From a virus, in IMG/VR virus record IMGVR_UViG_3300031578_000445, positions 1 through 20,008 of that record: a stretch of DNA of 20,008 bases; one strand, 5' to 3'. The position numbers and the translations under genes were made by a program. Within the stretch, counting starts at the first letter, position 1. Every line of letters starts with the position of its first letter. Of this stretch, positions 6,432 to 17,626 are shown piece by piece. The notes under the pieces are model-generated. The model was given only the letters and a program-made list of their open reading frames with translations. It did no database searches and was not told the DNA's origin.

Positions 6432-6785
6432 CTACCTTTCGTTTAGATCGGGCGTAATCCCTTGTTCTAGCTCTTTTTCCCAACGATCTACTAAATCGTC
6501 TTGAACTACTTCGCCTTCGCCTAATGCTGCATTTAAAGCGTTCAATTGTCGATACAATTCGTTGGCATTCTTAGAATCACTTGTTTCCAAATCGTCTAAT
6601 ATTTCTTGTTTCCTTAAAAGCATATCTTCAAACATCTCTAACGCTAACTCGGATTCACTTTGTCCAACAAATAAATCATGGTTAGCAGGTAATTTATATT
6701 TGTTTGTCCACCATTTTTTCAATTGGCTAAAACCAATTTTTACGTTTTCCTTAGCTTTCGCTAGTAATTGTTTCTCGTCTGAAAA
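6432..6785 (-). CDS. Downstream frame of tail assembly chaperone, expressed as a frameshift fusion
   Basis: The best start for a stand-alone gene is TTG 6722 (96 residues), but that codon has no ribosome binding site. The same frame is open upstream to a TGA at 6806-6804 and reads like protein across the overlap (DEKQLLAKAKENVKIGFSQL). It has no ATG or GTG there. It lies one base forward of the frame of the preceding chaperone gene, so it is most likely translated after a +1 (or -2) shift at TTTTTC (6786-6781). The fusion would be about 270 residues: about 155 from the first frame and 115 from the second. This matches the lambda G/GT design, in which the longer form binds the tape measure protein. 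The coordinate 6785 marks the slippage region, not an initiation codon. Confidence 0.75.
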   Translation of the reverse strand, partial: FSDEKQLLAKAKENVKIGFSQLKKWWTNKYKLPANHDLFVGQSESELALEMFEDMLLRKQEILDDLETSDSKNANELYRQLNALNAALGEGEVVQDDLVDRWEKELEQGITPDLNER

Positions 6786-7245
6786 ACATGGCCTCGTGGG
6801 CCATCACCTCCATGTAAATGTCCTGCAATAACTCGACGTGCTGTAAATCCCGCAAGTCTTCTGCCCAATCCGGTTTCACTTCCAAAGAAAACATTAAATG
6901 GGCAATCATTAAATTCAATTCCTGCGTTAACAAATCAAGAGATTCTGACGGCAAAGCATTACCTAAGCGAGCACGCATCACGCCTACCATTTGTCGATCA
7001 CGAATCGATAATATCTTATTAACAAATTCGCCTTTCCAAACCTTGCCCTGGGTATCCGTCCAATTAATAGAAAACGTGTATTTCGGTTTCATCTTCGGAT
7101 CGTCTTTTTGAATTTCTTTTTGCAAGGCCTCTTTTTCCCCGACCTCCATTTCAATGGTACGTTTCATTGCCCGCGTGTCATCTTCAATTTCTTCTTGTAA
7201 ATGCTTCGGTGTTAATCGTTCCATAATCGCTTTACTGTCTGCCAT
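6751..7245 (-). CDS. Tail assembly chaperone (gpG-like), upstream frame
   Basis: A 164-residue protein with ATG at 7245 and a strong AAAGGAGA binding site. The N-terminus is charged and helical (EEIEDDTRAMKRTIEMEVGE). A beta-like section follows with FSINWTDTQGKVWKGEFVNK, and the rest is helical, ending near EVMAHEAMFF at residues 147-155. A similar acidic helix with HEA/HE..F near the end is what I recall in phage chaperones just before their frameshift. It is the second to last frame before the tape measure gene, as expected. The protein would be made in excess over the fusion form. It is the first full gene after a terminator, so it probably opens a new transcription unit. Confidence 0.8.
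   Translation of the reverse strand: MADSKAIMERLTPKHLQEEIEDDTRAMKRTIEMEVGEKEALQKEIQKDDPKMKPKYTFSINWTDTQGKVWKGEFVNKILSIRDRQMVGVMRARLGNALPSESLDLLTQELNLMIAHLMFSLEVKPDWAEDLRDLQHVELLQDIYMEVMAHEAMFFRRETITSES
6779..6789 (-). promoter_or_regulatory. Probable programmed frameshift site (TTTTTC) in the tail chaperone
   Basis: The minus strand reads GCC ATG TTT TTC AGA CGA in the first frame. The coding-looking second frame needs GAC GAG AAA CAA, one base ahead. A Phe tRNA on TTT can re-pair with the overlapping TTT one base downstream, because five T's precede the C. The first frame stops at TAA 6753-6751, and the two frames overlap for about 50 bases. Tail chaperone frameshifts are conserved in dsDNA phages and are usually -1; Mu is a known -2 case. 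The direction here is read straight from the sequence; the precise slippage codon is inferred. Confidence 0.65.
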
Positions 7246-15236: not shown

Positions 15237-15782
15237 TTACCCATTTAACAACTCCTTTCTCGAAATAGTGAACCTGGTTAACGTAGGATCACTTTCAAGC
15301 AAATCGTGAAAATCTAAAGTTGATAAATTGGAAACATCCAAATCTTTAAATGATCTCACATCGGAGTACCGGAGTACCGACGCGACGTATTCAACGCAGT
15401 ACATTTTCAAAGGATCTTGCACAGTGTTTTTTGGTTTGATCCCGAATAACCTTTTCAGGCAAAGAATCAATACGCCAAATAAAGCCCCCTTGGTATCGTA
15501 TCCCGTGCCCATGTAATCACGGCAAACAGCAATGCCTTTAAACAAATTGTCTTTAGACTGGATGCACTCAAAATCAGTTATTCGCTCGAAGGCTTTCCTA
15601 GTGCTTACGATGTGCGGCCCATTTTTATCAACGTCGATAGCTACCCAACCGCCCAATTCAACCAAATGGACAAACAACAACGTATGATGAAATCGAGAAC
15701 CCATGAGGTAACGTAAAAATCTAGCGTGCAACTTGTGCGACGTTGCTAATGCTACCAAAACTTTTGGGTATTCATCCACCAC
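15237..15782 (-). CDS. Permuted papain-fold (NlpC/P60-like) protein
   Basis: A 181-residue protein if started at GTG 15782, just after the stop of the glycosidase-like gene; the frame extends to ATG 15842, but that would overlap the gene by 58 bases and has no well-spaced binding site. In this numbering, His32-His33 lie in SRFHHTLLFVHLVELGGWVA. Then comes TGYDTKGALFGVLILCL, and Cys129 lies in MYCVEYVASVLR. His first and Cys later, with a YD..G and C.EYV motif, is the order of circularly permuted NlpC/P60 (YiiX-like) proteins, which act as cysteine peptidases or amidases. Beside a glycosidase-like gene it could help degrade cell wall, or modify a lipid or protein. Activity is inferred. Confidence 0.6.
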   Translation of the reverse strand: MVDEYPKVLVALATSHKLHARFLRYLMGSRFHHTLLFVHLVELGGWVAIDVDKNGPHIVSTRKAFERITDFECIQSKDNLFKGIAVCRDYMGTGYDTKGALFGVLILCLKRLFGIKPKNTVQDPLKMYCVEYVASVLRYSDVRSFKDLDVSNLSTLDFHDLLESDPTLTRFTISRKELLNG

Positions 15783-15784
15783 CG

Positions 15785-16663
15785 TTACCCACCCATTACT
15801 TTGTACGTGTCGTAATGGTGAACACATTGCCCATAAAAACACGTACTACCTTCCGAACCTTCATTCAAAAACGCGCTTGCTATTAATGCGTGCTGCGTTT
15901 CCATGTAACTTTTCGTCATACCGTAATAGGATTGCCAACCCTCGCTTAACTGCTTTGTTTCCGACGTACACCAAATTGGAATTCGCCGTCCTGAGGTAGA
16001 CACGTAAGATAACCAGTTTTCAAGCATCGATATTTGCCCTTGTTGGCCGCTTACCGATTCTGCAATGTTCGAATACGCGCCAACAAAAACCATATCAGAT
16101 ACGTGCATCCAGTGAACGCCTTCGGGCTCAAGGAAACCATCGTACGATACTAAACCGGTGCTTCTATCTTCTGTTATTTGCCACCAAGGAGCCCAAAGGC
16201 CAACCGGCATATTCAAAATCCCTTTGGTGTCCTTCATCAAATCGCACATTAGTGGAACATGTTTTTGTGGATCGTTGTCTGAAATGAACCATTCCACGTC
16301 GAACACAAAACCGTCAAATTGTTCCTTGCTTTCGCATTGCGCTTGGTACTGGCGCAACGGCTCGAGCACTGTCCGCCGCACCCAGTTTTGTAGCACGGTC
16401 CAGTCATCGTTTCCCGCTACCGCATAAACCGCTATGCCAGCAGTTTTCAACGCGGAAACAAGAGCCTTCAACCCGTCTACGTTGGCTGTAGACCAAACAT
16501 AGCGGCCTATCCAATTGTAAATAGATAGCAATACACAATTGATTTTGTTGGTTTGACAAAAGGCAACCAAATCCGCTTGCTCTTGTGTAGAGTCAACGCT
16601 GTCCTTATTCCACACGAACATCGCTCGGCCTGTTGTATGATTCGCTGGGTAAATGTAACTCAT
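15785..16663 (-). CDS. TIM-barrel glycosidase-like protein
   Basis: A 292-residue protein from ATG 16663 with AGAGGAAA upstream. The order of strands suggests a full TIM barrel: RAMFVWN (13-19), INCVLLSIYN (41-50), IAVYAVAGN (77-85), FDGFVFDVEWF (116-126), MPVGLWAPWW (152-161), DMVFVGAYSN (190-199), RIPIWCTSET (227-236) and CFYGQCVHHYDTYK near the end. Asp122/Glu124 after the fourth strand and Glu235 after the seventh sit where retaining glycosidases hold their acid/base and nucleophile. The exact family is not recognised. Next to a tail-fibre-like gene and a papain-fold gene, it may be a virion depolymerase or a cell-wall enzyme. There is no signal peptide or fibre domain in the same chain. 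Confidence 0.65.
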   Translation of the reverse strand: MSYIYPANHTTGRAMFVWNKDSVDSTQEQADLVAFCQTNKINCVLLSIYNWIGRYVWSTANVDGLKALVSALKTAGIAVYAVAGNDDWTVLQNWVRRTVLEPLRQYQAQCESKEQFDGFVFDVEWFISDNDPQKHVPLMCDLMKDTKGILNMPVGLWAPWWQITEDRSTGLVSYDGFLEPEGVHWMHVSDMVFVGAYSNIAESVSGQQGQISMLENWLSYVSTSGRRIPIWCTSETKQLSEGWQSYYGMTKSYMETQHALIASAFLNEGSEGSTCFYGQCVHHYDTYKVMGG

Positions 16664-16672
16664 AGTTTCCTC

Positions 16673-17626
16673 TTAGTAATCGAGATCCCCCGACACTTCG
16701 ATATAATCGCACAAATGCGATCTTGTTGCTGTACCACCCGTCGTATAGCTCTGGGAAATAACATCCATGACTGTAGAAGGAATATTCGTTGTGATGGTCG
16801 CCTCTAACACGTCGTCGATGTAAAACGCCACCGAAGCCAAGCTGGCCTCGATTCGAAAATGATGCCAATCAGTATCTAAGGCAAGCACGCCGCTTTCTGT
16901 TGTCGTCGAACCGCCAGAAGAGCATCGACAATCCCAGTAGCCAGTTGCCGTATTCGCCTTGAATTCGATTTTGTTGCTGTAGTCGTCGCGGAAACCAATG
17001 TAAACGGATACGTCCGCAAGCTGTTCAAGTTTTTGGCCAGAACGCATAATGGGGTTGTCGGCGGCGTAGAATGATTTAATGGATGTGGTTAACTCACACC
17101 ATTCATCAGTGTCCCCATGGCTTGAAATACGAATCGCCCCGCCTCTATATTCTATCGGTGCTAGACCGTTATTGACACCGCCACTTTTTGAATTCGTCCA
17201 AATATACCAATTCAAATCAACGCCGATGAAGTGATCCCACAATCTGTATTTTTTCGTCGGATCTGCCTTGCCGGAAATAGTATCTAGGTAAGTCAACGCC
17301 GCCTCAACAGTAGAGGCATCGTCTAGATTCGTTTTTGCGTCAGTGCCTATCAGTGACGCACCTTCACTGCTTGCCGTAGTCGAGCTTAATTCCGTTTGCG
17401 TGCGGTAGCGGGCATCGCCTCGTGTATCGCTGTGGTATTGAGTGTGATCGTCGTCTGACAAGCCAAGCAAGTTTCCGTGGTCCACTGAACCGCCTGCGCC
17501 TATTGGCGATTCTGTCCCGTCATCGTCTTTCGAATACCACGCGCCGTCTGTCTTCGGGTAAATCTTACTGTACCCTGTTGGCGGCGTGCTATGCGTATCG
17601 TCCTTTTTAATCGTGGCTTCCGGCAT
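16673..17626 (-). CDS. Tail-fibre-like protein with C-terminal lectin-like region
   Basis: A 317-residue protein from ATG 17626, two bases after the stop of the small gene before it. The N-terminal part is polar and linker-like (THSTPPTGYSKIYPKTDGAW). Residues 49-74 contain DHGNLLGLSDDDHTQYHS and RGDARY, the well-known phage fibre/tail spike motif HGNL.GL.DDDHtqY. From about residue 130 to the end, the sequence is rich in beta strands (WDHFIGVDLNWYIWTN, VYIGFRDDYSNKIEFKA, WHHFRIEASLASVAFYIDD), resembling concanavalin A or LamG-like domains. This domain could bind the host glycan. It probably forms a receptor-binding or adhesive virion protein, working with the glycosidase-like protein after it. 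Confidence 0.75.
   Translation of the reverse strand: MPEATIKKDDTHSTPPTGYSKIYPKTDGAWYSKDDDGTESPIGAGGSVDHGNLLGLSDDDHTQYHSDTRGDARYRTQTELSSTTASSEGASLIGTDAKTNLDDASTVEAALTYLDTISGKADPTKKYRLWDHFIGVDLNWYIWTNSKSGGVNNGLAPIEYRGGAIRISSHGDTDEWCELTTSIKSFYAADNPIMRSGQKLEQLADVSVYIGFRDDYSNKIEFKANTATGYWDCRCSSGGSTTTESGVLALDTDWHHFRIEASLASVAFYIDDVLEATITTNIPSTVMDVISQSYTTGGTATRSHLCDYIEVSGDLDY

Follow-up and report, generated by a model that had tools for sequence, protein, structure and literature searches.

How does a phage obtain two proteins from two overlapping reading frames when the second offers no start codon at the junction? The question is raised by a set of contractile-tail genes that lies on the minus strand of the IMG/VR virus record IMGVR_UViG_3300031578_000445, whose 20,008 bases are called the window here. 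Two overlapping frames sit between the tail tube gene and a putative tape measure gene. The first, chap1 (7245-6751, minus strand), runs from an ATG at 7245 to a TAA and encodes a zero-frame tail assembly chaperone of 164 amino acids, which would correspond to a short, gpG-like product. The second, chap2 (6782-6432, minus strand), would be the gpT-like part, a +1-frame extension of 116 amino acids that begins SDEKQLLAKAKEN. Direct reading and a script agree that this second frame opens right after a TGA at 6806-6804 and closes at 6432. It lies one base ahead of chap1, that is, in +1, which is arithmetically the same as -2, and the two overlap by 50 nucleotides. The answer we favour, at a probability of roughly 90%, is that chap1 and chap2 are one gene read two ways, by a +1 slip of the P-site tRNA-Phe at a UUU codon.

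One line of evidence is that the relation between the frames is kept throughout a family of relatives. They were collected with the tail tube as bait, after two scans of viral contigs with the chaperone had given near relatives only (tblastn with chap1 and a Pfam search found nothing). An added scan of bacterial and archaeal genomes contributed two contigs of metagenome-assembled genomes, labelled Planctomycetota and Myxococcales. Both frames are present in 57 distinct loci, the window included; these form the sample, and tube identity to the window extends down to about 35%. These loci are mostly metagenomic fragments, related by descent and drawn from many metagenomes. A preliminary description of the window had taken the second frame to be coding across the overlap and to lead the first by one base, and this is borne out: chap2 is conserved, and always in +1, in 57 of 57 loci. 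Two further contigs (L002 and L003) are identical, and L004 is 88% identical at the protein level. Alignment of the +1-frame protein begins at the codon that follows the slipped Phe, and residues are invariant from codon 6 on.

What if chap2 is simply an independent gene that has a start codon of its own, perhaps aided by an upstream GGAGGTG? A GGAGGT does lie about 8 nucleotides before a +1-frame codon that reads ACG, ATG, TCG or TTG depending on the locus, and in 21 of the 57 the ten or so codons that precede the slip include some start codon. However, that +1-frame codon is ATG or TTG in a minority only and ACG or TCG in the window and most loci, and no start codon for chap2 is conserved across the family. 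The preliminary description had noted that the second frame lacks an ATG or GTG here, and rightly so, as the first ATG, GTG or TTG of this frame in the window is a TTG at 6722. This is 20 codons past the slip site, and in five relatives (L004, L022, L034, L070 and L106) the first standard start comes 30-113 codons past it, beyond conserved residues. Two distant relatives, L025 (7335-8094) and L026 (near 8641), do have chap2 as a separate overlapping frame with its own ATG, still in +1 and without UUU followed by a pyrimidine (UUU_Y). They seem to represent one lineage that swapped shifting for initiation. Independent initiation would also leave an invariant TTT, described next, unexplained, and for the family as a whole we consider it very unlikely.

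The second line of evidence is the slip codon itself. A shift must take place between the TGA of the +1 frame at 6804-6806, its upstream limit, and the TAA of the zero frame at 6751-6753, its downstream limit (all minus strand). Within this overlap, an in-frame TTT followed by a pyrimidine stands at the same place in all 57 loci, preceded in nearly all of them by GAG NNN NNN. In the window it is the UUU at 6786-6784 followed by U at 6783, in the local context GAG GCC ATG TTT TTC. The preliminary description was thus correct to place ATG TTT TTC AGA (6789-6778) inside the overlap. Its interval 6751-6806 stands as the overlap, not as the slip site, the slip tetramer being UUU_U at 6786-6783.

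The slip Phe is TTT in 57/57 loci, whereas two further Phe columns that are invariant in the chaperone have TTT in 19/57 and 18/57, and the Phe codons of the tube and chaperone genes together number 286 TTT and 518 TTC. Given the codon usage of each locus, 18.2 of 47 representatives (below 80% identity to each other) would be expected to have TTT there and 47 do (z 9.3). This z value and those below are guides rather than exact probabilities, since the shuffling treats loci as independent. The columns of highest synonymous identity in the chaperone gene also cluster at the slip site. The base after TTT is C in 45 loci and T in 12. A one-base forward slip therefore puts the tRNA on TTC in 45 and on TTT in 12, all of which tRNA-Phe can read, and full re-pairing is available in every locus, window included. 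The preliminary description had proposed that a Phe-tRNA re-pairs one base forward on a TTTTTC run. The re-pairing part is supported by these loci, but the five T's are not required, because most relatives have UUU and then C.

These data also bear on the direction of the shift, which had been left as +1 or -2. A -2 shift as in phage Mu, with the tRNA moving two bases back at TTT TTC to give ...HEAMFFSDEK, fits the frame arithmetic equally well. In the window taken alone it is compatible with the sequence, as a Phe-tRNA sitting on the TTC at 6783-6781 would find a TTT at 6785-6783 to re-pair with. The relatives argue otherwise. A Phe-tRNA on UUU moving back two bases would meet a mismatched codon (CGT, CCT, GAT and others) in 48 of 57 loci and a readable one in 9. 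In 52, UUU is followed by a codon for Leu, Arg, His or Trp, and the tRNAs for these do not match UUY. The comparative data on the UUU codon and on re-pairing thus favour +1, and a -2 shift is highly improbable; a -1 shift was rejected by the same comparison. Slippage of RNA polymerase on the T run, giving a mixed mRNA population, would draw on the five T's of the window, but many relatives have just TTTC at the site and codon phase is strictly kept, so that its likelihood is close to negligible. Finally, the frame break itself is the sole argument for an indel introduced by sequencing or assembly into one fused gene, and this reading is refuted: 57 distinct loci, from many metagenomes, share the break, and so do isolated phages.

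Those isolated phages provide a third line of evidence. The chap1 protein matches PHROG 25000, annotated 'tail assembly chaperone'; 11 of 17 members do so, at a best E of 4.7e-11. Its fold model (predicted local distance difference test, pLDDT, 81) matches annotated Herelleviridae chaperones in BFVD at E of about 1e-5 to 1e-4; against the PDB there was no match at E <= 0.001. With hhalign, the chaperone part aligns to those of SPO1, Dolphis, PHB04 and others (97.3%, E 1.8e-11), and the alignment stops at the slip Phe. The extension part aligns to the SPO1-type extension (96.4%, E 1.1e-9). Judged by these alignments, then, both parts are homologous to SPO1-type chaperones across the join. The SPO1 record annotates the chaperone extension as a +1 slippage product, and that of Adastra has '+1 frameshift product'. 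All 14 isolated-phage records read (SPO1, PHB04, Dolphis, ST4, Touem01, Yen8-01, T5282EW, EalM132, Goe26, LysYB1, Adastra, Semele, A511 and Thermus Lalka8) have the +1 relation and UUU_CGN at the join, for example UCC_UUU_CGU in SPO1, UCC_UUU_CGA in PHB04 and UCC_UUU_CGC in Dolphis. In A511 the overlap is only 14 nucleotides long and contains UUU_CGC, which pins the slip site. The layout was not seen in SBSphiJ7, which was picked by gene position. The public records of several phages (L113-L120) treat the +1 extension as an independent hypothetical protein that starts further downstream, and in one (L120) the zero-frame gene is left unannotated.

Is there anything beside the codon that might promote a shift? 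The preliminary description had named nothing further, and the two elements added here both lie upstream. One is a predicted hairpin at 6788-6804 (minus strand), ATGGCC-CACGA-GGCCAT, which ends one base before the slip codon (-9.2 kcal/mol). Relatives fold theirs from other sequences, such as GTAGCC-CATGA-GGCTAC in L015, GACTC-GCAC-GAGTC in L009 and TGCTCG-ATTT-CGAGCA in L016. When synonymous codons were shuffled in 47 loci, the 24 nucleotides before UUU had a native fold of -7.43 kcal/mol against a mean of -4.37 (Stouffer z -8.4). The signal falls off with distance in overlapping segments, those further upstream giving +0.9 to -3.3. Shuffling that spares the conserved codons GAG, GTN and GAG still gives z -5.7, and 35 of 47 loci fall below their own mean. 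On this evidence a hairpin of some kind, variable in register, is selected just 5' of UUU. A single conserved register did not emerge: pairs counted in a fixed register barely exceed the shuffles (61.5% vs 59.8% of cells paired; further pair types 8/500), and RNAalifold found no consensus structure in the aligned sites. The claim is limited to a variable register for this reason. Selected structure 3' of the slip is absent or slightly avoided in the codon-preserving test (z +0.4 to +2.0), which speaks against a downstream stimulatory structure.

The other element, whose bases are strongly conserved, is an internal Shine-Dalgarno-like GGAGGTG at 6805-6811 (minus strand), with 18 nucleotides between it and UUU. 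GGAGG occurs about 20 nucleotides upstream of UUU in 50/57 loci, compared with 39 occurrences in 21,225 nucleotides of the rest of these genes, and the variable codon that precedes it has G as its third base in 38 of 42 loci, against an expected 21.3 (z 5.7). A GAG codon at 6793-6795 (minus strand), six bases before UUU, is part of the 3' arm of the hairpin and weakly Shine-Dalgarno-like (GAGG); there GAG is used over GAA in 41 of 45 cases, against 26.3 expected (z 4.7). PHB04, Dolphis and Touem01 (L108, L110 and L120) have AAGGAG(G) some 5-6 nucleotides before UUU, nearer the RF2 layout than the GGAGG of the window clade.

Taken together, these features suggest the following scheme. Most ribosomes would make the 164-residue chaperone. 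At UUU 6786-6784, some P-site Phe-tRNAs would release and re-pair one base forward with UUU or UUC, so that reading continues in the +1 frame and yields a fusion of 270 amino acids (154 + 116) with the junction ...MAHEAMF-SDEKQLL.... HEAMF-SDEK was one of the two junctions anticipated in the preliminary description, and the tryptic junction peptide predicted for the window phage is DLQHVELLQDIYMEVMAHEAMF-SDEK. In SPO1, a +1 slip at UCC_UUU_CGU would give the junction AYDNWYHSF-VNQVNPEK. The small hairpin, refolding right behind the slip site, may push the shift forward, and perhaps the upstream GGAGG does too. Our own guess is that hairpin formation shortens the path from GGAGG to the P site. 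In tail assembly the short and long forms would then act at a fixed ratio, as do lambda G and GT.

Two sets of findings make this scheme plausible. For influenza PA-X, P-site +1 slippage at UUU_C has been shown by mass spectrometry, and tRNA-Phe pairs better with UUC than with UUU (Firth and colleagues, PMC3498833). In a 70S system, Shine-Dalgarno duplexes and hairpins upstream stimulate +1 shifting, whereas downstream structure attenuates it (PMC6321510). A re-pairing tetramer with an abutting upstream hairpin and no downstream structure fits both. Nevertheless, some observations weigh against the scheme. The empty RNAalifold consensus, a result of the varying stem register, is one. Another is that the GGAGG of the window clade lies farther upstream than known +1-stimulating Shine-Dalgarno elements such as that of RF2, which leaves its role without explanation. 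A third is that the codon after UUU varies (CTC, TTC, CGN, CAY, TGG) and does not always look rare, so that an A-site stimulus is hard to name. The odds are about even that a +1 signal in three parts (UUU_Y, an abutting hairpin that pushes the ribosome forward by refolding behind it, and an upstream GGAGG, with neither 3' structure nor a stop codon) serves a large clade of contractile-tail phages, and that UUU_Y is the general +1 site of the chaperone superfamily.

The surrounding genes follow the order sheath (10292-7980), tube-like protein (7967-7521), chap1/chap2 and tape measure (6427-4286), all on the minus strand. The sheath matches PHROG 279. At 770 amino acids it exceeds the roughly 570-620 of related sheaths, and tblastn matches to it split in two pieces with at most 72% coverage, which suggests a large internal insertion in its sequence. 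The putative tape measure (713 amino acids) is assigned by place and length, and a PHROG search with it gave no match. Its frame starts five bases past the chap2 stop with TTG in the window and GTG in L004, so starts here look non-ATG. Elsewhere in the window, the open reading frames 15237-15842, 15785-16663 and 16673-17626 gave no match to a PHROG family, nor did the first two of them to Pfam.

What is new here is not the +1 shift as such, which is already known in this chaperone group from the SPO1 annotation and from HSTV-2 and HF1. The preliminary description had called the design a less common variant. This is fair relative to phages with -1 shifts, but +1 was already annotated for SPO1 and suspected for the HF1 haloviruses. 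A limited literature search found no statement of UUU_Y as a common rule of the superfamily, no report of a naturally occurring hairpin just upstream in a +1 site of this kind and no paper on TTTCG/UUUCG in phage tail genes. We know of few natural +1 frameshifts in bacteria, and the driver is usually a stop codon or other pause. If the scheme is true, this would be a natural counterpart of an upstream-hairpin effect shown with designed constructs. The 57 natural variants offer a ready-made mutational series on how hairpin and GGAGG affect frame maintenance. One slip rule, UUU then a pyrimidine with a sense codon in the A site, appears to have been maintained in a group of phages that diverged deeply and extends to SPO1 and A511, and the rule has converged on the motif seen in influenza PA-X and the amalgaviruses. 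The forward-slipping design looks widespread. In many phage records the second frame figures as a hypothetical gene of its own whose start is wrong, and the rule would permit re-annotation.

How does the window compare with known systems? The closest is SPO1 gp10.2-gp11.1 of the Herelleviridae (also Adastra, A511 and Semele), which shares the homologous chaperone and extension, the order of sheath, tube, chaperones and tape measure, and UUU then a pyrimidine at a join annotated as +1 in SPO1 and Adastra. It differs in that SPO1-type sites are UUU_CGN in all 14 records read and the upstream hairpin signal is weak (Stouffer -2.3), whereas the window has UUU_UUC and its clade several codons, CGN in 16 of 57. 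In other words, the window site would work like a UUU_CGN site without being one. In the haloarchaeal myoviruses HF1 and HSTV-2, TTT-CGC near the stop has been proposed as the shift site and +1 suspected (PMC7230728). TTT CGC is indeed present at the join in the HF1 sequence, and the two chaperone frames before the tape measure have the same +1 relation. However, these are archaeal viruses in which neither hairpin nor GGAGG is evident by eye, and the likeness is one of layout and motif. At the UUU_CGN +1 sites of influenza A PA-X and the plant amalgaviruses, the P-site Phe-tRNA re-pairs from UUU to UUC (PMC3498833, PMC5052127), and the PA-X motif UCC_UUU_CGU is identical in SPO1. These are eukaryotic viruses whose proteins are different and not homologous, and at the window site the tetramer is UUU_U and the A-site codon TTC. 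In lambda (G/GT), HK97 and Mu, too, a short chaperone and a longer, frameshifted version of it are encoded between tube and tape measure (PMC5009743), but the lambda-type shift is -1 and that of Mu -2, at other slip sites. E. coli prfB, which encodes RF2, shares with the window a +1 slip, a re-pairing pyrimidine and an upstream Shine-Dalgarno element. In RF2 the spacing from this element to the slip site is roughly 3 nucleotides, whereas the window combines a sense codon with a distant GGAGG and a hairpin.
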